This document shows, piece after piece, positions 1 through 60,897 of a stretch of 64,000 nucleotides of DNA (the stretch's first letter is position 1; every line of letters begins with the position of its first letter). The DNA lies in assembly GCA_002205965.3 (NCBI GenBank), contig NADL03000480.1, positions 62,001 through 126,000 of the forward strand, in the 5' to 3' direction. Source of the DNA: Kappaphycus alvarezii. Lineage: Eukaryota; Rhodophyta; Florideophyceae; Gigartinales; Solieriaceae. Below the pieces are notes generated by a model. It was not told where the DNA came from. It did not search any database and was given only the letters and a program-made list of their open reading frames with translations. The translations under genes were made by a program, and so were the position numbers.

Positions 1-463
1 GTTGTCTGCCAACTTGCTTGACCTCCACTAAAGGAAGCAAGTTACTCGGCTTATATAGACCTTTGGCTACCCTAAAAGTCTTCAAACAAACAGACTAATA
101 ACCATAAAATGCATTCACGGGAATCGTGTGAACCAGAGAGACCATTAGAAGATATTTCCTCAAGGTAAATATCTAGGTGCCATACCCATGCCAGCCTCCT
201 ATCGGCCAGGGGTGGGAATTGATGTGGCCATTATATAGACCTTTCAGAGTCACTCGTAGTATCACCCACAACCTAGAACTGTACTGACATCCACTATGAC
301 AGTGTGTCCTAAAATAAAAAATCAACCGATGAATTTGCCACACTCACCCAAATTTAAAATATCTTGCAAATTCAAAAACTGTAAAAATATCTTCCCAGTT
401 CCAATACTGTATACAATTATGGTCCTCATCTAGATTTTTTCGTGTGCGAATTTGCGCACATCA
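1..463 (-). repeat. 3' LTR of the gypsy element (partial)
   Basis: Matches 4656-5118 base for base as far as I can check by eye. On the minus strand the LTR starts at 463 with TGATGTGCGC. A purine-rich stretch immediately precedes it (plus-strand 464-476 is pyrimidine-rich). The rest of the LTR lies left of the window. Confidence 0.95.
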
Positions 464-496: not shown

Positions 497-1581
497 TCAC
501 TGCTCTTCTTCTGTTTCCGTTAGTGTTCGCTGTCTTATTGATAAAATATATGGTCTCTCAAACGGGTACGGATGCAACTGATTACCAATATGATGTTCTA
601 AAAAGTAGGTTCGCATTACTGGTACCTCACTTTGTAGCATAGCCTCATATATTGGTTTGATAACATCGAGGTGGGGTTGAATACATTCTTCTTCCGTGAC
701 TCTTCCGAATCTTCCAAGAGTGAAAAAATATATGTGATATGCAAACTCTTCTGGAAGATGCCGGAGGAATGGATGCCGATAGGAAAAGAAGACGCGCATC
801 ATCAAGAACGAATCTTCGTAAGATAAGTGCGGTCCATGTAGCGCCCTAAAACATAAACAGATGCTTATCATGAAATAAGAAATGACCTGCGCATCGTTCG
901 CGTCCTCGGAGATATTGCGCAGCCAAAAAGATAATCTTCTTCTTCCGACTGTATGCTGTGCATGGTTGTGAAGGAGAGCTAGAGATGAAGTTGTGGTGGG
1001 CGGTCCCGATGAATGGCCGCGACCAGCTCCTGACGTACTGGGACCTGCACGAGGTCCTCTCGGGGGACGACCAGAACCTCTTTTGGGCGGGTTGCTGTCT
1101 CCCGAAGGTCCTCCTCTGGTCATCATCACTGCTTCAGGAGGATCCTCGCCGCCTCCAATGTTCCCAATTTGTGGCGGAGAAACGTAAGGTTCCCATAGAG
1201 GATACGGGACCAGTCTGTACTCCATATCCGGGGTAAGGCGTAACCTCTCAGTCGCACGTCTTGGTTGTTCTTGAGAAATACGTAAATTGGACGTATAATA
1301 TTCAGATACGTTTGCGACAAGTCTCCAGCAGCTACCATTCCATATCTTCCTATAGAGTAATGACATATTACCTCCACAAACTCTGGACCTGCTTCCGTGA
1401 ACCTTCCGTTTTGGAATGAAAATAGAACTCTTATTAATAGTCGGAAATCTTCTTCAGGTAGCAATGGTCCGTTCAACGTACGAAAACATAGGCATATATT
1501 AATGTAGAAATGGATGATTACGTGGAGTTCGTAGTAGTCCCGCGTAATCGAGATGATCCATTCCCAGGCCCTTTTTCCTCC
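497..1581 (-). CDS. Tandem unknown domains A and B at the end of gypsy pol
   Basis: The minus strand encodes two related copies of a domain I do not recognise. Copy A lies at about 1578-1169 and copy B at about 946-542. Both contain ICLCFR, a GP-L---ED pair, RV-FS, GR-G-V and I-PIY, and both end with a PYP-[LF]-[EW]-PY motif. Identity is roughly 40% by eye over the central 67 residues. A linker of about 75 residues rich in Gly, Pro, Ser and Arg joins them. Copy A changes reading frame once by -1 near 1260. Because other genes here show the same kind of -1 shift, this may be a consensus error or a real recoding site. The position after integrase is where gypsy elements may carry an envelope-like or accessory gene, but I see no signal peptide or membrane anchor. 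The C-terminus is acidic (ending TETEEEQ). Confidence 0.75.
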
Positions 1582-2448
1582 CATAGGAATCATTCTATAG
1601 TTAAAGATGAGTATGCCCCGTGGTTGCGCATAGTCCTGTGTGAGAAGGAATTCTTCAGGCCTCTGATGATAAGGGACCAGACGACGTGCATGGATAGCCC
1701 TCCTTGATCTCTTCCCTGAGCTTGAACAGAGCTGATAGTGCGGGTGTCTTTCCTCCGTGACGATGCAAGGGTTCGAGTACTTGGTTTGGAGGGCCGGCCA
1801 CTTCACAGCCTGCTGCATTGCTTTTCCATGTACTACAAGTACTTTAGTGCCAACTGAAAAGGTTCTGACTGCAGTTTCTGCATCCTTCTTTGGTGCGACC
1901 ACAACTGGAAACGACCATGGGGATGAAACTGGTCAAATAATATCATTTTTCAGCATACTTGTAACATTTTCTGAGATAAATTGGTCATATTTTGGCGGTT
2001 GACGTCTGGGCTTGTGGTAAATCGGTTGAGTGTCGGTAAGTTCGAACGAGTGAGTAACCGGTACACTTGCTTGTCTTAAATCTGATACACTCCATGCAAT
2101 TACTTCGGAAGATGTTAACATGTCAAAAATATCCGGTGAGTCGGCGGCGGGAATGTGCTGCACTTTTCCTTGGATTTCTGCCATTTGGCGCCCTTTTTCT
2201 TCTTCATTCTCAACCTCAATATTTTGAAGGACCTCTCCCGTCGTGCTCACATCTTCATGTATGGAATTCGACGTATTCTTATTTTCTTTGCAAAGGTAAT
2301 CTTCTTTCATGCTCCGAATTCTGTCCTTTGATTCGATATCATCGCAAAAAGAAACATATTCGGGTTTCAAACTTATCCTAGAATTCCAGTCGTCATCTGT
2401 TTCAAACCCAGAATCATAATCGTCCCATGCCATGTTCATTACCCCCAA
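1582..2448 (-). pseudogene. Gypsy pol remnant: RT start fused to integrase C-terminal tail
   Basis: The first part is acidic. It ends in the typical entry to a Ty3/gypsy reverse transcriptase: HSFELTDTQPIYHKPRRQPP, then a helix ending MLKNDII, then (after one TGA at about 1933) the SPWSFPVVVAPKKD motif. The usual next RT motifs are absent. In the same frame the text runs on as FSVGTKVLV and later RRAIHARRLVPY, which is the beta-barrel tail that follows the integrase catalytic core. An in-frame deletion of several kilobases has therefore joined the RT fingers to the integrase tail at about 1875. No catalytic residues of RT, RNase H or integrase remain. The reading frame continues directly into domain A. 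Confidence 0.8.
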
Positions 2449-2880
2449 GGGTACCCTTTTCCACTTCCGAAAGTGTTCGTTGGTTCCGAATCTTCGCTGT
2501 CATAGCTAGAAGTGAAATCTTCACTGTCCGTTTCTTTTAAATCTTCAGGATGCGTGCTTTTGTCGAAATCCAGGGGCATCTTCACGGTTCTGCCGTCAAT
2601 ATTAACTGAAACCATTTGATTGCCCAAGTCAATGCATGTCCCTAGTCTTTCCATGGTAGGGCAGCCAATGATTGCATCGAAAGGGAGATCAGGCATGACA
2701 AGAAAGTCTACATCAACTTTAGAGTCCCCAAAGAACACGGAAACATTGTCAACAGTGCCCATGCATTTTGAGACGGTTCCATCCGCTACAGTTATTTTTC
2801 GAGTCGTTGGAGTAATGTCGAGACCTAATCTGTCACCAAAGTTTCTGAAATGAGGTTTGGAACAGCACCCGAATCGAAGG
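2439..2880 (-). pseudogene. Gypsy aspartic protease (frameshifted)
   Basis: The catalytic DSGA motif is at 2875-2864. After a frame change it is followed by LGLDITPTTRKITVADG, then the flap-like strand VSVFFGDSKVDVDFLVMPDL and the hydrophobic-Gly motif AIIGCPTMERLG, which match a retroviral/retrotransposon pepsin-like protease. It would form a homodimer and cleave Gag-Pol. The 3' part is acidic and ends one frame out of step with the RT section, overlapping it by about 10 bases at a G run (2448), which could be a -1 frameshift site or an indel. Confidence 0.7.
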
Positions 2881-3252
2881 AGCCTGGGTTTTCATACCCA
2901 ATACTTTGACTGGTACCAGCTTAAGACGTCTTGGTGCTGTCGAGGCCGATTGAAGAAACAGTTTCTTACCCTTAGCGGACTTATTAGACCTGATAATTTT
3001 TTTGAGTTCTTTTCTCGCATCTCTGCGTCGCCCCTCAAAAGTTGACCAAACGTTCTCCCAGTTGGGGCCGATGCAAGCTCAGCCACCAAATTGTACCTCT
3101 TCACATACTCTAGTACGTCCTTAGAGATACTCTTACTTTCTTACTCTTTTTCGTCTTCTTGGCCGGAGTGACTCCTACTCCTGGAACAACTTGATCAGAC
3201 CTCTTGGTTCGAGGAGGTACAGGTGCTGGGATATGCTCCAGCATTCCATAAT
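2881..3252 (-). other. Gag-protease junction of the gypsy element, no intact frame
   Basis: Between the gag stop and the protease motif there is no long frame. Short stretches rich in Lys and Arg appear in alternate frames, as expected for the linker between nucleocapsid and protease with a few indels. Confidence 0.5.
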
Positions 3253-4266
3253 CTAGCCTAGGTTTTTCGATAAAATGTTCCCTTCCCCATCCCTTTTTGT
3301 CACATTGACTTGACTAATCTCTTCAGCGATGGATACGTTACCGGCATCCGTCAACCTTTGATCCCTTCTATTTTGCAAGATTTTCACCTCTGGTCCTGAC
3401 TCACTCCTTGCTTCCGATAAATTTGCTCTTCTGTTGTCTTTAGACCAGCAGTTACTTTCATGATGCCCATATCGACCGCACTTTCCACAACGAGTGTTTC
3501 TATGTGGATTATCAGGACACCTGTTTGCAAAGTGTCCAGGCTTGTGACAGTAAGAACAGACTTCTGCGGCCTTAGGGGCCCCAGACTGGTTCTTCTTAAT
3601 GGTAAGAGTAAGGCTTTCCAACTGCGAGGTTATCATGTCAAGTCGATTATCGAATCGGGTTTCCAACCTTTCTTCCAAGTTTTTGACATCGCTCCTGACA
3701 GATTCTAATGCCGCTGCACTAGTAGCCGGCCTTTGATAATTCTTTTCAGGATGTACGATAGACATCGATGTGCGGGTTTCCCTCGGTACCTCACTCAGTG
3801 ACTGAAACGTCTCCGAATTTTTGACAAATTCTACTATGGTACCCTTCAGTTCATCAAAAGTGTGAGGGCCCTTGATGAGGAGGAAATCAGAGAGCCGCTT
3901 ATCCCCCATAGCCGCCTTACGCAGCATTCCGTACTTGGCTTGGGCGTTGAACCCAGCCTTTTCATAAAGATCACACAAGTACACCAATGAGCTTAACAAA
4001 TCGTCGAAGTTGAGCCGGGCCTCTATGGCGGTACGAATCATCTCATCTGGTTCTACCTCCTTAGCATACTCTTTCACAAGCCACTCACATACGTCACCGA
4101 AGTTACGCCCATTCCCGTTAAGAGACCACCCGTCGATAAACTTGGACTTATATTTGTGCTTTGCGTCACCATGAAGATAGGCAAAGATACTTGCGGCCTT
4201 CTCTTCATCGCCCTTCTCACGCATCACAACGTTGACATGTATAGAGAAACTCCTCAACGTCTTCAT
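3253..4266 (-). CDS. Gypsy Gag with two CCHC zinc knuckles
   Basis: A 337-residue open frame. The first half (about 20-165) is helical and resembles a Ty3/gypsy capsid, with aromatic and Leu-rich helices such as EWLVKEYAKEVEPDEMI. Residues about 180-225 are predicted coiled coil. Two nucleocapsid zinc knuckles follow, at residues 237-250 (CSYCHKPGHFANRC) and 260-273 (CGKCGRYGHHESNC). Gag packages the element RNA into virus-like particles in the cytoplasm. It is intact, unlike pol, which fits a deletion derivative that could still be packaged by itself or by a relative. The start at 4266 lies just inside the putative primer-binding site. Confidence 0.88.
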   Translation of the reverse strand: MKTLRSFSIHVNVVMREKGDEEKAASIFAYLHGDAKHKYKSKFIDGWSLNGNGRNFGDVCEWLVKEYAKEVEPDEMIRTAIEARLNFDDLLSSLVYLCDLYEKAGFNAQAKYGMLRKAAMGDKRLSDFLLIKGPHTFDELKGTIVEFVKNSETFQSLSEVPRETRTSMSIVHPEKNYQRPATSAAALESVRSDVKNLEERLETRFDNRLDMITSQLESLTLTIKKNQSGAPKAAEVCSYCHKPGHFANRCPDNPHRNTRCGKCGRYGHHESNCWSKDNRRANLSEARSESGPEVKILQNRRDQRLTDAGNVSIAEEISQVNVTKRDGEGNILSKNLG

Positions 4267-4380
4267 TCTTGCCCCCTGTGAACGTTATAAGAGCAGCGTT
4301 GAGATCCATGATTACAGAAAAGAAATCCCCTCGAACGGTTCCCTAAGACTGCTCAACTCGAATACCTCGGGTGCAACCCC

Positions 4381-4398: not shown

Positions 4399-5118
4399 TG
4401 ATAGGGGCAAATCGTCGGGAGAAGAGATACTTAGAACCAACTACCCCAAGACGGAGGTTTTGCGAGCGACAAAAGTGCTACCGTGGTATAGTTGAACAAA
4501 TAAAAAGCAGTGTATATGGGAGAGAGTTGATAGGACTACAAGCAAGTATAAAAGGGGCAGCGTCTACCACTGATGCTCTGCGACCAGCTTAGGAAAAAGT
4601 TTTCTTGGGTCTGAAGTTGACTCTCAACTTCCTACTACTCGGAGCTTGACCTGAAGTTGTCTGCCAACTTGCTTGACCTCCACTAAAGGAAGCAAGTTAC
4701 TCGGCTTATATAGACCTTTGGCTACCCTAAAAGTCTTCAAACAAACAGACTAATAACCATAAAATGCATTCACGGGAATCGTGTGAACCAGAGAGACCAT
4801 TAGAAGATATTTCCTCAAGGTAAATATCTAGGTGCCATACCCATGCCAGCCTCCTATCGGCCAGGGGTGGGAATTGATGTGGCCATTATATAGACCTTTC
4901 AGAGTCACTCGTAGTATCACCCACAACCTAGAACTGTACTGACATCCACTATGACAGTGTGTCCTAAAATAAAAAATCAACCGATGAATTTGCCACACTC
5001 ACCCAAATTTAAAATATCTTGCAAATTCAAAAACTGTAAAAATATCTTCCCAGTTCCAATACTGTATACAATTATGGTCCTCATCTAGATTTTTTCGTGT
5101 GCGAATTTGCGCACATCA
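4399..5118 (-). repeat. 5' LTR of the gypsy element (about 720 bp)
   Basis: The right boundary (CA at 5117-5118) comes from the match to the other LTR. The left boundary (TG at 4399) is supported by the decayed LTR at 5655, whose similarity starts at the same TGATAGG. On the minus strand it should contain the element's promoter and polyadenylation signals. Confidence 0.8.
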
Positions 5119-5654
5119 GCCCTATCCTACGCTTCTTTCCACTTCATATATAACGTCAGGATGCCAACCTCTGAGGGTACATATTAGCATGAGGACGAGT
5201 ATGCCTCGGGAGAAAGTAGCTATGAAGGGATAGTACCTTCTGTACTTCGCTGGTCGGTTTCGTTCAGGGAGGTCACAAGGTTGAACGTTTTGAATCCCCT
5301 GGTCGATTGCCCGAGTTAATTGATGAAAGTTATATAAGAAAGTCAGCCCCTCCGTGGCTTCCCATACCCGGATATCCGGTCATGTGCAGTGAAGACCCTC
5401 TTGTGATCCTAAAACGGGATGACGGGCATATCTGCCAAGCCCCGGTCCAAAAGATTCACTTGGCGGTCGTGGTGAGTAGATGAAAATAACTTCCTTTGCA
5501 CCAAATAATTCCAAGAAGAAGCAGTCATTGAAAATGTTCACTACTGAAAAGAACGCAAAAAGATACGATAGTTATTCGACAGAGGAATGTTGGAAACATG
5601 TGCACTGTGATGGGAAAATACTGGAATAGGTGGAAATATTAACACCAAACACCC
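5119..5654. other. Intergenic flank between the gypsy element and an older LTR
   Basis: No open frame or motif recognised. Composition is intermediate, less AT-rich than the tract further right. It could be further decayed gypsy DNA, but I see no clear match. Confidence 0.4.
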
Positions 5655-23393: not shown

Positions 23394-23505
23394 GGCATCT
23401 CCACTCGGAGACCTGCAAAACGGTGTATCGGCAAAAATATTGTTCGAAGTGGTCGTGTTTTATTGGTTTGCGGTAAACCCGTAAAACGCCATAGCGGTAT
23501 AGGAG

Positions 23506-25005
23506 ATGACTTCTCAAGCGGTTTATTCTGGTTTACGAATCAATCAGATGTCGCAGAGTCTTCACAGTGGTGCCTGCGACGCAGACAACACTGTGCAAGT
23601 CTCCCTCATGCTCTTCAAAAACAGCGAGACATTGCCATTCGCTGGCTTTGCGGCCACGGTAACTACGTTGCTGATGACCGTGCTTGGCGTGCGGGAAAGG
23701 ATTCGAAAGCGACATCTTGGTGTCCGCAGGCACGGTGGATCTCGCCCAGGCAGGGCACCAAACAGAAACATTCGGAAGGAGCTGGCTGGTCGTAACATCT
23801 ACGACACCTATTTTGCTAATGAGTCTAGCCTCAATGCTGGAACGGGAGAACTGGGTCCTGTTTTCTCAGAAAGGGAGTTTAAAAGGCGATTCCGCATGCC
23901 GAGGGCAGTGTATAATCGCGTTCACAACGGCGTACTTGAAGTTGGCCGCTATTCCTGGGAGGGCGTAGATTGCATCGGGAGACAGTCTGCTACTACACAT
24001 CAGAAGCTAGTGGCCTTGTTATGTCAACTCAGTCTTGGTATTGGTTCTGACTCTTTGACAGGGTTTACAAGTCTCTCTGAGTCAACGCACCGAGAATTCC
24101 GGAAACGCTTTGTGGGAGCCATATGCAATCGCTTCAAAGATGAATATCTTCGAAGGCCTACAATAGACGACTTGAAGCTCATTATGGAACGTCACGCAAA
24201 TTTAGGGTTTCCAGGAGCTTTGGGTTCTCTAGATTGTTCGGGATGGTAGCTGATCTGCGGCGCAGTGTCAGATTAGAGACGTAACATCGGAAAGCCCGGG
24301 GACCCAGAGCTCCGACTCGAAAGCGTCTGCGACAACGGGCTTTGGATCTGGCACCTCAAGTTTGGCTTCCAAGGCGCCATGAATGACGTAAACATACTGG
24401 ACTGCTCACCACTTTTCAGTGACGTTCGGGCCGGACTGTGACCGCCATTCAAACTTGAGAGAAAAGTGGCCGGACGCGTCATACAGTGGTTCTATTGGAT
24501 CGTTGATGGAATCTATACGCCGTTTCGGATCTTTCTCAAAACTATTTCTAACCCCCAAACGAAGAGGGATAAAAACTTAGCAAAAGCACAGGATGCGTTT
24601 CCAAAATGAGTAGAACGAGTCTACGCCGTGCTATTTAGTAGCTGGCATATTCTATCCAATCCGTTAAGAATATGGTACACGGAAGACATGAACTACGTAA
24701 TTCGTGCCTGTGCTATTTTGCACAATATGATCATTGAAGAGCGCGACAGGAATGGGAACATGGGGACTAAGAATATCGTCAGCGTTGATCCAGATGCTTG
24801 TATTGTCCCGTTGAGAACTATTAGTATACCAAATGAACCTTATGCGGCTGCAGACTTTTACCGTGAAAATGCTGACGGCATTGATAACAAACGCGATCAT
24901 GAAATGCTTACGAATGCATTGGCGGATGCTATCAAGGACAGATATGGGAGGGGAAATCTTGAGAAGTACTTGGAGAATCAAGGTAGTGCTGAGGAAGAAG
25001 GCTGA
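23506..25005 (+). pseudogene. Harbinger (plant-type PIF) transposase, broken
   Basis: The first frame (23506-24249) has the basic N-terminus, the EFKRRFRMPRAVY motif, the helical region before the catalytic core, and LGSLDCSGW, which carries the first catalytic Asp. A stop follows. The next part, in other frames, holds VCDNGLWIWHLKFGFQGAMN and DVNILDCSPLF with the second Asp. The last part (to 25005) holds VERVYAVLFSSW, where the catalytic Glu is still visible, and ACAILHNMIIEERDR, the standard C-terminal block. An active enzyme would cut and paste the element. Here stops and frameshifts separate the three parts. Confidence 0.88.
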
Positions 25006-36139: not shown

Positions 36140-38783
36140 CTACAGTAAGGGCTGCTGTATACGCGGTGCGAAAGATGGCGGAAGAGACGTGTCATTTCTT
36201 CGCAGCCCGGTCGATAAAACCTTCAAGGAGCAGACGGTATCAGAGCATGCGGCACCGAGGGAGTCAAAAGCGATGGGCTGGAACTGGACACCAAGGTCGC
36301 GAGTACCACGAGAAGGGTCGAGGGAGGGGGGGCTTCGCCTGGAAAGCTCGTGTTCCAGCTTCTGAATCTTCCAGCAATATTCTTGAGTAGCCGCGCCGCC
36401 GGCTACTTGTGTCACACTTGCAGCGGCGGCCGGCGTAAACGGCGATGTAATGATAACGTCACAGGCAGTGAGTTTCTCGCAGGCGCCAGCGGGGGAGGCG
36501 CTAGGATGCACAAAGATGTCCCCGGGCCGAAGTTCGGAACCAGGGATGAGGTCAGGAACCTCAAGCTGGGTTTCCAAACCAATGGCGCGAAAGAGGTGAA
36601 AGGCGAGGGCGTTCCGAATGGAGTCATGACGGTGTTGACGTCCAAACTCAGAAGGGCAGATGTCAGCTGCATGATCGCCGTAGACAACCAGCGGTTGCTG
36701 GCAGTGGTTACATTTCAACGGCATCGAGTATGTGTAGACTGGCATAGAGAGGTGGCGGCGTAGCATTACTGTCCAATGGGGGCGGAAACTTTTGTGGCAG
36801 CCGTCGGGTGCGCTTGGACGAAAGCAGCGGCACCACTGTGGTGGAAGGCAAGGCCTAGTACCCGGCGACGGGTCCTACAAGCAGGGTGATGTCGCAGGCA
36901 TGATACATTCCTCCAGAGATCATCCTCCCAGAACTCCTTGGCCCTGCCCTCATGCTGAGTCCTATTTAAAAGTGTTTGGAGGTTGACGGGCTTGTCGGCA
37001 AGGGCGGTAGGGTAAGACCACCGTGGAGGCGGCGTACAAACTCACGAAGGGGCAATTTCAGTTGGCCAACAAAGAAGAAAGGCCTGTCGCGGCGAGCGCG
37101 CTTTCGAAGGACTACTTCTGACCGCGCCGTAGAGTACGACGCGGTGCGCCGAGGGACGGGGGCTGAATCCATGAGGCTGCCAGCCACTGCCCCGTGGAGA
37201 AAGGGGTCAATCAGGGAGAAACCCTGACCGCGCGAGGCGCAACGGAAGACACGCTTGGTTCCAATCTGAGTCCGTGAGAGCGACGTCACGAAATGACTCA
37301 TGGGCGGATCGCTGCAGGGAGTCGAATTCAGCTGCAGGGTCAGAGGAGTGTTTTGGATTTGCAAGTTTTAACAAATGCGTGACGCGGTATGCCGACGCAC
37401 AGAGTTTGTGCATATAGAAACGGACCTGAGGGTCCCGGATGTGGTCAAGAAGCTTCAGTACGCGTCGACACGCATCAGCTTTGTAACGGAGGAACGCCTT
37501 TGTGAATGTACCGTTACTAATCGGGGCGCCGATGATATCGAAGCCGTCACCAGCGTACTCGGAAAGAGGAAATTCGCCTAGGAAAGCTGCTCTGTCCAAG
37601 GGCGTGATGTGCGGCCAGTAAATGCCGGTCTTCTGGTGGTTAAAGAATATGCTAAAAGCCGGGCCGTACCGGGCAACGGATCGAAGGGCTCTCCGGAGTC
37701 CGTCCAGTGACCCCGTGCCGTCATCAGCGTACCACTGATTAAAGAAGATGCCGTCCTCCACGGATATCCGCTGGATGAGTGGCTGGATAGCGAGAGCGCA
37801 GAGCAGCATGCTAGCAGGGTCTCCCTGCTGAGTGCCCTTCGCACTAGATATCAGAGTTCGGTCACGGTTCGGAATGATTAAAGGTGGCTGGGTCCGACCA
37901 TGAGTCATGTTAGCGAAACGTGCGACCGAAGGGGCACGAGGTGGGAGGACGTCTAGCATTGTCTGTCTATCAACGCAATTGAAGGCGTTGCGGGCGTCAA
38001 TAAGGATGGTGGCCACATGCAGGTCAGAGGAAACCCGGCGTGACAATGTGCGAACATCATGGACGATGGAATCCATGCTAGCCTTGATACCATTGGCCGG
38101 TTGGAAGGGGCCAGGAAGTCGCGGGAATCTTCAATCGCCGAAGGTGTCTTCGTCACAATGCGTCGAAGGACTGATCAGACTGCAATTGGACGAAACTTCC
38201 CGGGTTTTGGCTGGAGCGGAAACACTGTTGCAGCAGTGAGAATGGGGAGGACTGCGTCCGGACGGCCCCCTTTTGCTTTCCGGGTGACCAGTTTCGATAA
38301 AACACCGGGGCCAGTGACAACGGCTTCAGGGCTGAGAGGGGTCTTGCAGAGCAGGTGAAACCACTTAGAGGGCGTGTGGTCGGGGACTGCCGTGGTGTCA
38401 CGTGGCACGCGGCATGTTGCCTTTGCGACTTCAGCGTTTGTGACGCGGGGGGGTGGCGGGAGGACATCTTCGGGAAGCGGAGTCACGTGCCTTGGCGGGG
38501 AGGTGTGAAGGTCCCGGAGTTGTTGTACAGTGCTTGGGGCATTCACGTCTGTGCACGGGGCATTGTGAGGGGTGCGCATAGCCTTAACGTAGCGAGCGTC
38601 AGCACAGAGGGCTTCCGCCCGTAGGGAACATTTCACATCCGAGGTAGCAGGAGAGCCGCCGGGAAGTGGCAGTAAGTTCCGCCCGGTGACTGTGAGCGTT
38701 GATGTCAAAAATATCCGACATTGTTCGAGCGCAATCTGTGACACTCTGGCCAGACTGTAGTACTCTACTGTACTGTGCTGCAT
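36140..38783 (-). mobile_element. Non-LTR retroelement copy 1: reverse transcriptase plus R2-like endonuclease domain
   Basis: Read leftwards. The segment 38783-38175 holds the region before and into RT block 1 (LTAATVFPLQPKPGKFRPIAV without the first base context). The segment 38076-37207 holds the core: motif A as LIDARNAFN, motif B as KGTQQGDPASM and motif C as QWYADDG at residues 116-120, then a thumb. The segment 37364-36966 continues in another frame. The segment 36766-36140 holds the C-terminal domain: CNHCQQ followed by GDHAADIC (a CCHC zinc motif), RHDSIRNAL, PGSELRPGDIFV and ACDVIITSP, which match a PD-(D/E)XK nuclease core as in R2-type elements. The 5' part is missing, as expected for truncated target-primed insertions. 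Frames are shifted between segments. Confidence 0.85.
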
Positions 38784-44786: not shown

Positions 44787-47412
44787 GTGGGCTGCTTCCC
44801 CCAGTTAGTCCCACCTGTCATCGCTACACCTTCTACCATTTTTTCTTTTCGTCCTGGCGTCTCCGAAGGAACCCCGCTCCCCTCCCCTGTCCCCGTCGCT
44901 TCGTTCCGCGGCACGACGCATCGTACCCATGCGTTACGTAATGTCCTCCACCGCCGTCGCAGTTCCAACGGCAGTTCTTCCGTCTTCACGCTCACCGTTC
45001 CCAAGGATGAGCTCCACATTCTAACTTCTAATGTCGGTGTCGCCCCTCATAAACAAGGCACACTCCTCAAATATACAAATGTACTCAAGCGCTGGAAGTA
45101 TCGTCAGTTCTGCCTGGAGAATGGGTCCTCACATATGCCGCCCTCATGATTTAGACCGCGATAGCAGCGATGATTCCATTGGAGATGTTGAGCCAAAGTC
45201 GATCAGGAAAGTCCGTAGAAAGTTGCACTTTTTGAAACGCCAGACGAGTAAGGATGAGAAAGAACGTGATATCAAGGGCTCTATTACATTGCAATTCGCT
45301 GTCATTACTGCCGATGATTCTGATCCAACTCGCTTTGCCATTGATGTTGGTGCCGATGTCTTTCACATCCGTGCCGAGAGTGAAGCAGAGAGAGATGAAT
45401 GGGTTGATGCAATGAATGCTTCAAACGAATACTTTCGAGGCTTGATCAAGACTGCAGTGTCTAGGGCGAAACAATCCGCGAATCATCACTCGACGCACAA
45501 TATCCAGGTAACAGCTGAAGGACTGGAAGCACCTACCCCGAATGGCCCCTCGATGCGCGACAATGTCTATGCTATAGATGACAGTGATGACAGTATCCTT
45601 GAGGACGACGGATTGAAGGAGGCGGAGCAGAGTCGCACCGCACTGCTCTCTGAACTCCACCGTATCTTGGCTTGTTGGAGGCACAAATGGGTAGAGCCTG
45701 GCGCCGTCCCAGAAGATGATACGGAATTTCTGCAAATGGTCGCAGCTGCCTTTAAAGATCGCAATTCCTCAGGCGACGCTATGGACCAGCCTGTGCAGGC
45801 CTCGGCAAAGGGCCTTATCGATCTCGTCACCTGGTGTCTTCATGTTTTACAGACAAACGATGAACTCTTTGAGCGTAGAATGAAGGCGGATCTGACGAGA
45901 GTCATGGCAGAGGGCCTGCCCATGTTTCCCACTAGTCCGGCAAGGCTCGCAAGCAAGATTGGGGATATTGATGACGATGAGGAAGATGATGACAGCGACT
46001 TGGAGTTTTTTGATGCATTGTCACGTGCGGCAAGTTCGCGTGCCTCGTTTGCGAAAAAACAAACCCTTGATGAAAGGGAATCTCTGGCACGCGGTCTTAA
46101 CCGCGGGAAGGGAGTAGGTGATATGGCGGCTTCTTCGGAAAGAAGGTTAACGGCAGGGGAAGTCAAGCGAGTAGATACGAAGATCATCTCGAAGGGCTTC
46201 AGAGGACGGCGGACAAGACTGCCAAATATATCTGGCAAAAAAGAGACTCTGAACGTGTTTTCTATTTTGAAGGACGCCGTTGGCAAGGATTTATCGAAGA
46301 TTAGCATTCCAATCGTGTTGAATGAACCTATCTCCTTCTTGCAGCGCCTTGCTGAGGACATTGAGTACTCTGAGTTGTTGGACAAAGGAGCTGCGGAGCC
46401 AGATCGCAATAGGCGCATGATGTACGTAGCTGCAATGGTTATTTCACACTACAGCTCTACGCAGGGTAGAATGGGCAAGCCCTTTAACCCTCTACTTGGG
46501 GAGACTGCTTGCGTTATAATGCCGGACAAAGGGAAGGGAATTCGATTTGTGGCAGAGCAAGTTAGCCACCATCCCCCCATATCGGCGTGCTATGCTGAGG
46601 GCTCTGGTGCCTCGTGGAAATACTACAACAGCATAGAGATCAAGAACAAGTTTTGGGGGAAAAGCCTCGAAGTTTTTCCGACAGGCCTGAACCATATAGA
46701 ATTTCCAGAGTACGGGGACCATTACGTTCTGGAGCAAGTTACCTCCTGCGTTCACAATATCGTCATCGGAACTATGTGGCTCGACAACTATGGGGAAATG
46801 GAAATTGTTAATAAGACCAATGGGGTCGATGTGTAGTCAACTTTGCGAAAACCGGCTGGATGAGTGACTCTCGTTCGTTTGGAGCAATCAAGGGAACGAT
46901 ATATGATGCAAGCGGTGCATCAAAATTAAGATTGGCGGAAATTGGACTGATTGCATTTACGAACAGCTGCCAAAGAATAAGAAGAATGTTATCTGGAGGG
47001 TTGCCGATCGGCCAGATGACAACGCGTCTCAATCGTACAACATGACGAAATGGGCCATTTCCCTGAATGCTCCGGTACGAGATGAGGAACGGCCATTCGT
47101 TGCCCCAACCGACAGCAGGCTGAGGCCCGACCAAAGAGCTCTTGAGAACGGAGAATATGCGCAAGCATCCTCCTACAAGACGGCTTTAGAGGAGGGACAG
47201 AGGCAAAGGCGGCGGGATATGGACGCCGAAGGTGTAAAATGGGAGCCGCGATGGTTCAAAAAGGTACCTGGAGACCAGGAAGGTACTCACGAATATGTCT
47301 TCGGGGTGAATTCTTCAAATATCAAGCTGTCGGGATTGGTCCAGATGCCAAGACATCTTTTCGTGCGCCAACGCAAAAAGCTGATAGTCAGTCCCACAGG
47401 GCAGTTGGCTAG
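44787..47412 (+). CDS. Oxysterol-binding-protein-related protein with PH domain
   Basis: A lipid-transfer protein that would carry sterols or phosphoinositides between membranes at contact sites. A basic, Ser/Pro-rich N-terminus leads into a PH domain (KQGTLLKYTNVLKRWKYRQF ... AVITADDSDPTRFAIDV ... RAESEAERDEWVDAMNAS). A helical acidic linker with a D/E run (around 45970-46000) follows. The ligand domain contains LNEPISFLQRLAEDIEYSEL, HYSSTQGRMGKPFNPLLGET, the signature EQVSHHPPISA, GDHYVLEQVTSCVHNIVIGT, then NFAKTGWMSDSRSFGAIKG, PRWF and a C-terminal strand. Order and length fit the ORP family. The gene is read only if five single-base losses are allowed (two near 45125-45150, then near 46830, 46940 and 47305), each a -1 shift and several at G runs. 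This points to sequence errors rather than decay, since conserved motifs resume at once each time. The upstream frame start at 44787 is the best candidate start. Confidence 0.9.
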
Positions 47413-53214: not shown

Positions 53215-53404
53215 CTTACACTGTCAGCTATGCTTACACGCCTTTTACTGTATAATGCATGAAGTAAAGATAATTACACACCGAGAACGGTCATGTCTTC
53301 GTCCTCAAACGGTAGTTTTGAGGGGTGGTGCTATTCTAATTTTCCTCACTGTATCCCCCTCTGGAATCCATGAAGTAAATGGTCTCTTTTTTTCTCTCAA
53401 TTAT

Positions 53405-53560
53405 TCCCACTGTACTGTACGGTACTGTACGGTACAGTGCCGAAGTCATTCAGAAGTCATCCAGAGAATACTGTACAGTACTGTACTGTACTTGCCGCCG
53501 TACAACACACAGCTCTTTACTGTGCGGTACCGTAACAGGTACCGTACAGGACAGATTAAA
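53405..53560. promoter_or_regulatory. GTACTGTAC-type cluster upstream of the glutathione peroxidase
   Basis: The densest cluster in the window, with at least eight variants of GTACTGTAC or GTACGGTAC at 53411-53550, ending about 80 bases before the start codon. Confidence 0.5.
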
Positions 53561-53633
53561 CCGTGGGCATTTTCAATCACCAAACACTCAACCGACTAAA
53601 GCAAACTTCGAAACTAGACAATTCAATTCAACC

Positions 53634-54431
53634 ATGATGAACTTCTGGGCCGCCATCTCCACACCTCCGTCTTTTATTTTCCCGGCGGTTCCTCGCAGCA
53701 ATTCTTTCCTTTGGCAGCCACCCGACTGTTTTCCTCACATCACTTGCAATTTAAACAAACACACCCCTCAGCAATCCATTCAAGCCTCACCAGGCGCCAC
53801 GACAAGCCAGCGCCTTTCCCGTCGAGCTTTTCTGCGCATTTCCGCCGCCCTCATACCGCCATCCCTCTTCGTTCCCTACTCCGACTCAATCGCTGCGCCG
53901 ACCTCAGCCTACGACATTGTTGCATTCAAAAACGGCGCTCCTTTTCCTTTGTCTGACTACTCTGGCAGACTCACTCTCTTTGTCAACGTGGCCACGTATT
54001 GCGCTCTGACGCCACAGTACGAGGGTCTAGTTTACCTCCACGACACTTACCAGAGTCGCGGTTTCGAAATTATCGCCTCCCCCTGCGACCAATTCGGGCA
54101 TCAGGAGCCTGGTTCTAATCAGGAAGTTTGCGCCTTTGCCAAGGAAAAGTTTGGAGCGCGCTTCCTCCTGCTTGACAAGCTCAACGTAAACGACGCCCCA
54201 GGTGGAGTTGCCCCTCTGTACCAATTTTTGCGCAACACAAGCCCAGAGGGTACTGGTCAGCGTGTCTCTTGGAACTTTGAAAAGTTTCTTGTCGCCACGG
54301 ACGGCCACGTTCTAAGAAGGTACAAGCCAGGCATCCTTCCTGAGGATATTCAAGCGGATATTAATTGGGCACTTGATCACCCCGGGAAAAATCTACCCCC
54401 TAAGAAGAAACCGTCACTTGGTGTCGCATAG
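53634..54431 (+). CDS. Glutathione peroxidase, Cys type, with Tat-like plastid targeting
   Basis: Reduces hydrogen peroxide and lipid peroxides using thioredoxin or glutathione. From the Met at 53634 (CAACCATGATG) it is 265 residues. The peroxidatic Cys123 sits in VNVATYCALTPQYEGL, where animal enzymes may have selenocysteine. Cys166 (EVCAFAKEKFG) is the likely resolving Cys of thioredoxin-dependent plant-type enzymes. Gln153 in SPCDQFGHQEPG and Trp213 in WNFEKFLV complete the active site. Residues 1-60 look like a Ser/Pro-rich transit peptide. Residues 61-88 hold LSRRAFLRIS followed by a hydrophobic run and SIAAPTSA, a twin-arginine thylakoid signal. It is therefore predicted to reach the thylakoid lumen. 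The frame is open further upstream, but that part overlaps the palindrome cluster. The next gene starts 8 bases after the stop. Confidence 0.92.
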   Translation: MMNFWAAISTPPSFIFPAVPRSNSFLWQPPDCFPHITCNLNKHTPQQSIQASPGATTSQRLSRRAFLRISAALIPPSLFVPYSDSIAAPTSAYDIVAFKNGAPFPLSDYSGRLTLFVNVATYCALTPQYEGLVYLHDTYQSRGFEIIASPCDQFGHQEPGSNQEVCAFAKEKFGARFLLLDKLNVNDAPGGVAPLYQFLRNTSPEGTGQRVSWNFEKFLVATDGHVLRRYKPGILPEDIQADINWALDHPGKNLPPKKKPSLGVA

Positions 54432-58739: not shown

Positions 58740-59656
58740 TCATTGCAACTCAGTCTTTCGACCTGAGCCAAGAATATCATCAAGAACGGCCAGGACCATT
58801 GGGCTTTTTCCGTAGGTTTCTTCACTGCTTCTCATGAGCAAGAGACGTTTCTCCACATCGGCCGCTGTGCGCCATCTACCAAAGGTTTGCGCAACAGCAG
58901 CACGCACGAGATCCTCACGGTCCAGAGCTCTCCCGCTCACACTTACCAAAAGACCCTCATCAACGCTTTCCGGTCTTACCATTTCCCCTACGGCACCAAT
59001 AGCTGCTGCAGCCTCAAGTCCAGGAGCTGAGGAATTTTCGACAATTTCTAGCAAATTAGGCAGTGCCACGGCATCGCCCAAGTTGCCAAGTGAGACGATA
59101 GAGGTGTATCGAACGATGAATTCTTCATCCTCTGCAACTACACGAAGCAGCTCTGCAACTGCAGCGCTAACATAGTCCTGCACTCCAATGCCAGAGGCAC
59201 CATCCAGCAACCTTCCCAAGGCATTGGCCGCAGCCGCCCGAACCGAGTAGTCCTCCTGTTTATTTGCAAGAACTGATACCAAAGTTGGGGTCTCCGATAG
59301 AACGCCCAACTTTCCGAGGGTAGCAACCGCGGTCTGGCGCACCTGCTGATTGGAGGATGATAGCAGATTGGAGGACTGGAGAATTTCGAGTGCTGTTTCG
59401 GGGGAAGACGCTCAAGTGCAATCAACGCAACCAATTGCTTGGGCTGAGAACCACTGCGGAGCTGCTCGGAGATAGCGTCGTTATTCGGTGAATGTAGTCC
59501 TGACATTCGTAAAGAGCGGCGTGGCGAAGTGGAAACCGTTCCTTGCAGGTTGCAACGCGATGATCCATTTTGAGTGGTTGGCGCCCAGGCGATAGTTGAA
59601 GCACGAATAGTACCATCTCTGCCGACGTATAGTCCTTGCTTGGTGGATGAAAGCAT
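58740..59656 (-). CDS. HEAT/PBS-lyase repeat protein, plastid-targeted
   Basis: An N-terminal part with many Ser, Thr and Arg (STIAWAPTTQNGSSRCN) looks like a transit peptide. The rest is a run of about six HEAT-like repeats of the phycobilisome-lyase type: LVALIALERLP, VRQTAVATLGKLG, VRAAAANALGRLL, VRYTSIVSLGNLGD, GLEAAAAIGAVGEM and VRAAVAQTFGRW. In cyanobacteria proteins of this fold (CpcE/F, NblB) attach or remove bilins on phycobiliproteins. Others have unrelated scaffold roles, so bilin lyase is only one candidate. Two frames (59656-59400 and 59342-58740) are offset by -1 at a C run near 59400, which is one C short. Total length is about 305 residues. Confidence 0.78.
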
Positions 59657-60004: not shown

Positions 60005-60897
60005 TTACAAACGCCTTCTCTTGTCTTTTCGGCTGTTTCTAAGTTTACGATTTCGTGCTTTTTCTTCTCTCGCCGCCTTCTTTCTTATGAACTCCGGGTT
60101 CTGGCCAACCCCATACATTGGGCATTGCGGACAACCCATGCCAGGGCAGTCGTTGCACCTCATTATTCCAGAGTCCATAACAGTTGTTGCTTTCTCTCCT
60201 TTTCGAGACGATAAATGGTCTTGTCCTCCCACCAGTCTAGTCCAGTTATTTATCGCTTGCCCTTCCCTCATATTCTCCAGGTTGACTAAATCAACCCAGT
60301 CAACGTAATAAATGCAGTTTACAGGGCAGGTATCAATAGCTTCTTCAATAGCGGCTTCACACTCACCCATCTGGTCATACACACGAGCTCGACCGTGATC
60401 AGCCTCCATAAAAAACGTACCCGGAGCCGTCGTTGCACAATGAGTGCATCCAATGCAGTCTCTTTCCTCCACGTAAACATACCGGTCTCGCGGGCCTATT
60501 CCGTCCTCGTCAAATCGAATGATCTCAAAGGACTTCTTTAGTCCAAGCGGATTAGAAAGAATCTGTTCAGAATCGATCAATGCACGAAGCCGCTTGAAGT
60601 ATTCCTCGCTGTCAATGCTGGGGATTATGTCATCTGGGATTGTTCCCCGTCGCCACGTTGTGTTGCATTATTACCGTACGATGCCTTGATACAATATCTG
60701 CGAGGGACAACACATGGCCGAGAGGCCTGATTCTCGATGTTCACGCAATGGTAGTGACAGTTGAGTCGATTGTGTCGATGAAAGCTTAGCAGCCAGTTAC
60801 TAGCAGAGAATGCAGTCTGATACTGAACACGGCTGCTTGGGAAGGAGGGTGACGTTGGCATCTTGTCGCAGTTCCAAAACAGATTCTTCACCAGCAA
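60005..60897 (-). CDS. Ferredoxin-like 4Fe-4S protein with DnaJ-type CxxCxGxG motif
   Basis: The N-terminal frame (60897-60640) is Arg/Ser-rich and transit-like. The next frame, one base out of step, gives PDDIIPSIDSEEYFKRLRAL and then the ferredoxin domain: CIGCTHC (Cys 42, 45, 48 counted from the Met at 60580) and CPVNC (Cys 85, 89), enough for one 4Fe-4S cluster. After a helix comes CNDCPGMGCPQC (Cys 142, 145, 150, 153), which has the CxxCxGxG pattern of DnaJ zinc fingers, and then a Lys/Arg-rich tail (ARNRKLRNSRKDKRRRL). Plant chloroplasts have DnaJ-ferredoxin fusions; here no J-domain is seen. A plastid electron carrier or chaperone-linked redox protein is likely. The ATG at 60897 is the first in frame. 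Confidence 0.8.

Follow-up and report, generated by a model that had tools for sequence, protein, structure and literature searches.

A double domain, real and under selection, is attached to the integrase of a Ty3/gypsy retrotransposon of the red alga Kappaphycus alvarezii, and no description of such a tail was found in a literature search (made without most subscription journals). The place, the duplication and the selection of this tail, taken together, are put forward with high confidence. In locus L068 (contig C84), a copy with an intact frame, the integrase, the first domain (A), a linker and the second domain (B) run through one open frame (683 aa as fetched; 1373 aa for the frame containing the tail as listed in the search of the alga's own genome, a 336-Mb assembly of 884 contigs), and therefore the tail is the C-terminus of Pol. 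It belongs to a red-algal Ty3/gypsy family, and it forms the end of Pol in many copies.

The double domain and the element that carries it

In the window, which is the whole 64,000-nucleotide stretch of DNA analysed here, the tail lies on the minus strand and consists of domain A (approximately 1169..1617), a Gly/Pro/Arg-rich linker (986..1168), and domain B (500..985). Domain B, in ORF 500-1453, is unbroken and runs up to the stop codon that closes the tail. Domain A, which is unbroken in L068, is split over two reading frames in the window, with its last 20 or so residues in the frame of ORF 500-1453 and the remainder in that of ORF 1129-1932. A and B of the window copy were 35% identical over 126 aa (E 3e-23), and comparison of the window B with the unbroken A of L068 gave 50 identical residues out of 144 (E 3e-30). 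An old internal duplication gave rise to A and B, which are copies of a single domain about 145 residues long. The initial annotation had described two paralogous domains after the integrase tail, differing by more than half and joined by a Gly/Pro/Arg linker, and these statements were confirmed on the minus strand. The span that it gave, 497..1581, located the tail correctly, but domain A extends to about 1617, and the domain that it called intact is so in B but not in A.

Relatives of the tail domains were sought in several collections. Pfam and NCBIfam gave no significant family match, and a PDB sequence search gave no significant match either. Matches to AP-2 mu, Switch-activating protein 1, AP5B1, and DUF6080 had E values of 0.05 or worse and were treated as chance. 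Pattern scans of IMG/VR and GTDB genomes did not find tail relatives. In a set of 5.8 billion proteins, five proteins matched, and four of them, all fragments, carry the tail: the window ORF found P0001-P0003, ORF A found P0004, whose match was limited to the integrase end, and the profile found P0001 and P0005. The best match of P0001 in the alga's own genome was 68% identical, and, judging by its sequence, P0001 may come from another species. Two structure predictions were all-helical at low confidence; the domain is probably all-helical, but the models are too poor for its fold to be assigned, and a structure search with the second prediction returned no reliable match. Derivation of the tail from the element's own gag was also considered, and the similarity comparison with gag gave no support for it. 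As far as these libraries reach, the view that the domain is unrecognised was borne out by the Pfam, NCBIfam, and PDB sequence searches; no match to a known domain was found, and related gypsy elements do carry the tail. This suggests that domain libraries give poor coverage of the accessory parts of elements from organisms other than animals, plants, and fungi.

The element in the window is an LTR retrotransposon on the minus strand, assigned to the Ty3/gypsy type by gene order and best Pfam models only. Both LTRs are 720 bp long, with TG...CA ends, and a 5-bp target site duplication, which reads AGGGC on the strand of the element, flanks the element on both sides, which are LTR features of Ty3/gypsy elements. 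The 5' LTR occupies 4399..5118 on the minus strand, and the visible part of the 3' LTR occupies 1..463 on the same strand and continues past the window start; one copy of the target site duplication is at 5119..5123 and the other is outside the window. The two LTRs are nearly identical, with 4 mismatches in 720. The LTR of the window element was 98.8% identical to that of L002, and longer LTR matches in other loci of the close set L001-L030 were 84.5-95.1% identical. The tails of the L001-L030 loci were about 98% identical, above most of their LTR identities, and therefore the LTRs and the coding parts have separate histories.

The coding parts of the window copy, all on the minus strand, are damaged. 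The Gag piece (3256..4284) has two CCHC knuckles in its translation (Pfam zf-CCHC, E 0.045, below the cut-off), and the aspartic protease piece (2442..2891) matched Pfam PF13650 (E 1.4e-05, above the cut-off); both gag and protease are in pieces. Comparison with L035, which has RVT_1, placed a remnant of the reverse transcriptase (RT) start at 1879..1932 with a stop codon just before it, and an internal deletion junction at 1871..1891. The C-terminal remnant of the integrase (1618..1875) is 97% identical to the integrase end of L068, and rve is found upstream in L068 and L035. Only the protease, the RT start, and the integrase end are thus left of pol, and the RT core is missing as claimed; in comparison with L035, the absent sequence comprises RT, RNase H, and the integrase core and amounts to about 2.1 kb. 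In L035 itself, Pfam placed RVT_1 and RNase H first and rve downstream, so that the PR-RT-RNase H-IN order of Ty3/gypsy elements was found in a relative.

The deletion junction was private to the window copy and not common to L002-L030. Integrase core sequence was present in 28 of the 30 close copies. Of the two that lacked it, L001 is the window copy and L021 is broken off at a different point. A 7-base repeat is found at the edges of the deletion and is compatible with template switching. The window copy is a defective member of the family, whose RT and integrase core were probably lost when copying jumped from one short repeat to another, and it was presumably mobilised by its relatives. 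Because the deletion belongs to the window copy alone, the retention of the tail despite the loss of RT is uninformative on usefulness. The proposal that the accessory part is useful to the element is supported by its conservation between subfamilies and by the open frame of L068, but the argument from a young, broken copy fails.

Reading frames and selection across copies

The open frames around domain B were compared among the matches listed in the search of the alga's own genome. The frame was at least 430 aa long in 80 of the 150 matches listed, 295-390 aa in 32, and shorter in 38. For the 128 listed matches from rank 23 on, which were nearly all tied in score, the same classes held 75, 30, and 23, and these figures describe the matches listed and not the whole genome. 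The frame state of domain A in the window was common to 26 of the 30 loci L001-L030 (window copy included), with two differing and two unreadable, a proportion biased by the choice of these loci for their likeness to the window ORF.

Some frame lengths around B recurred among the matches listed: 588 aa and 318 aa were each seen 19 times, 211 aa 12 times, and 206 aa seven times. These recurrent lengths suggest either lineages that went on multiplying with common frame breaks or systematic errors of the assembly. Several broken-frame classes have multiplied too, which would point to help in trans; alternatively, the frame breaks in the copies may be assembly errors at short runs.

Selection was analysed by codon-by-codon comparison of L068, as reference, with seven diverged copies, namely L036 and the old copies L069-L074, with HSPs below 40% identity omitted and stop codons skipped. 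Each comparison with an old copy covered 50-196 integrase codons and 155-162 B codons. The synonymous difference between L068 and the six old copies was 0.68-0.96 over all segments, some synonymous distances being past correction. The nonsynonymous difference was 0.19-0.23 in B, 0.20-0.30 in the integrase, 0.27-0.40 in A, and 0.32-0.45 in the linker; in frame-changing old copies an HSP may continue in the wrong frame and inflate both types of difference, and A of L069 (33% identity in the codon comparison) is the least certain segment. The value for B was lower than that for the integrase in five of the six old copies and higher in L069 (0.23 vs 0.20, with 50 integrase codons), while A changed more than the integrase in five comparisons and equally in one. 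For the closer copy L036, the difference from L068 was 0.05 in B, 0.08 in A, 0.10 in the integrase, and 0.10 in the linker. The dN/dS of the window B, computable in three of six pairs, was 0.22 with L036, 0.08 with L070, and 0.11 with L074. Among five old copies the dN/dS of B was 0.37-0.67, and those copies have decayed since insertion.

Near-saturated synonymous change together with low nonsynonymous change indicates purifying selection on B. Judged from the aligned codons, B is about as constrained as the integrase, and A and the linker are less so. The two domains therefore probably help the element to move. The comparison of dN/dS across related elements, which had been proposed as a check, found B conserved about like the integrase in tail-bearing elements of two subfamilies or more, between which synonymous change is near saturation. 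That the tail is a passenger without function is extremely improbable: the broken state of the window copy and the stop codons or frame breaks seen in many copies speak for it, but nonsynonymous change between subfamilies is low against near-saturated synonymous change.

Integrase, A, and B sequence was found in all six old loci in the same order, with a weak A in L069 (27% identity, E 6e-9). In the tree, the true A sequences, which came from L068, L036, L070, L072, and L074 only, grouped apart from the B sequences with a support of 1.000; the rows L069_A, L071_A, and L073_A are actually stretches of B and were disregarded. Since the A clade is separate from B, the duplication that produced A and B took place before the subfamilies diverged.

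Possible roles of the tail

A role of the tail in targeting or packaging was the hypothesis of the initial annotation, and the position of the tail behind the integrase favours targeting. From its place and the selection on it, we take the tail to be an integrase C-terminal tethering or targeting module that would occupy the position of the chromodomain of other elements, though its sequence matches no chromodomain; our confidence in this reading is evenly divided. The tail would stay attached to the integrase, A and B would bind a chromatin or transcription protein of the host, and the Gly/Pro/Arg linker, which is basic, would touch nucleic acid. For a targeting mechanism of this kind the balance is about even. 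More tentatively, and well short of even, the tail may represent an undescribed class of integrase-borne targeting module, located where other gypsy lineages have a chromodomain, in which a tandem helical partner-binding domain and a DNA-touching linker use their own host factor to direct where the element integrates in red algae. Carried by an algal family that is abundant and recently active, a conserved double domain lacking known relatives would be a new type of integrase tail, one whose host partner could be searched for directly.

The insertion sites were examined using the 3' flanks of L001-L030. Eleven loci were without a usable flank and two repeats of a third flank were dropped, which left 17 flanks. 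These flanks were dispersed and showed only weak base preferences beside the insertion site, and no target bias was seen in them beyond these preferences. Their GC content was 0.477 in comparison with 0.457 (s.d. 0.080) in window segments, which is no clear bias. Among the 12 positions after the LTR, base 6 was a pyrimidine in 15 of the 17 flanks and base 8 in 16 of the 17, in an alternating pattern. Such base preferences could be caused by the integrase core alone. tRNA-directed insertion was rejected, since the 20 loci examined contained no tRNA genes, with about 0.7 kb of 3' flank covered for most of them.

Retroelement polyproteins are cleaved by a protease. The dispersed look of the insertion sites would also fit a tail that the element's protease cuts off the integrase and that then acts as a protein of its own, not in target choice but, for example, in assembling particles, in handling RNA, or in nuclear import. 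Cleavage of this kind is what retroelement polyproteins undergo, and the linker is basic and looks flexible. However, an open frame continuous with the integrase gives no argument by itself for a separate protein, and the tail has no similarity to the element's own gag; we consider a separate protein rather unlikely. Also weighed was an origin of the tail by capture of a host domain, which would work against silencing of the element or defence against it by the host. The searches made found no relative outside these elements, as might be so if a captured domain had evolved fast. Proteins in arms races, however, usually change rapidly, and B evolves as slowly as the integrase; among the best candidates in the alga's own genome, all of which may be element copies, no host gene was seen to carry the domain. 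Host capture is improbable.

The linker was also compared with the AT-hook, a DNA-binding motif with the core RGRP. It is AT-hook-like in some old relatives and not strictly so in the window. The strict RGRP core was found in the linker of two of the six old copies, L069 and L073, with near-forms in others; it was not found in the linker of the young family or in the other four old copies. Pfam gave no AT-hook match on six proteins, L069 not being among them. The likeness to an AT-hook is that the linker is basic and rich in proline and, in L069 and L073, contains RGRP; the core is absent in the family of the window copy.

Errantiviruses are gypsy elements with an env-like third gene. They share with the element described here extra coding capacity between the integrase and the 3' LTR, but in errantiviruses this is a separate ORF, whereas here the tail continues Pol in intact-frame copies such as L068. 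Pfam gave no match to an envelope family, and a separate envelope ORF was not found, the tail of L068 being in frame with the integrase. Chromoviruses, Tf1, and Ty3 resemble the element in that they have the gypsy gene order and an extra domain, under selection, behind the C-terminal module of the integrase. Chromoviruses have one chromodomain of about 65 residues, whereas two domains of about 145 residues, predicted to be helical at low confidence, are found here. Target choice of LTR retrotransposons is understood for few integrase tails only, for example chromodomains, and the Ty3 chromodomain contacts TFIIIB and sets the insertion site (PMC8632968). Pfam scans of the tail gave no chromodomain match, but the vestigial chromodomain of Ty3 could be recognised from structure only (PMC8632968).

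Neighbouring features of the window

The stretch 5122-5379 on the minus strand was tried as a diverged start of domain A and rejected, because the search of the alga's own genome and the fetched loci place it in another repeat. This repeat has at least 150 relatives in the genome, and loci L038-L067, which were brought in by the search with 5122-5379, were excluded as tail relatives. The adjoining frames, by eye, look like what we take to be the C-terminal zinc-knuckle and endonuclease part of a non-LTR element. The stretch is probably a remnant of the C-terminal part of such an element, into which the gypsy element inserted.

Further along the window, Pfam matches pointed to likely host genes encoding an oxysterol-binding protein with a PH domain (45025-46836, plus strand), a glutathione peroxidase (53379-54431, plus strand), and a ferredoxin-type 4Fe-4S protein (60005-60667, minus strand). 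A HEAT-repeat protein (58740-59411, minus strand) is also a likely host gene by its Pfam match, and the window contains a weak HEAT_PBS match, which hints at a red alga. Two matches below the cut-off were a further reverse transcriptase at 37207-38130 on the minus strand (RVT_1, E 4.9e-05) and a weak transposase-like match at 23503-24249 on the plus strand (Plant_tran, E 0.002).
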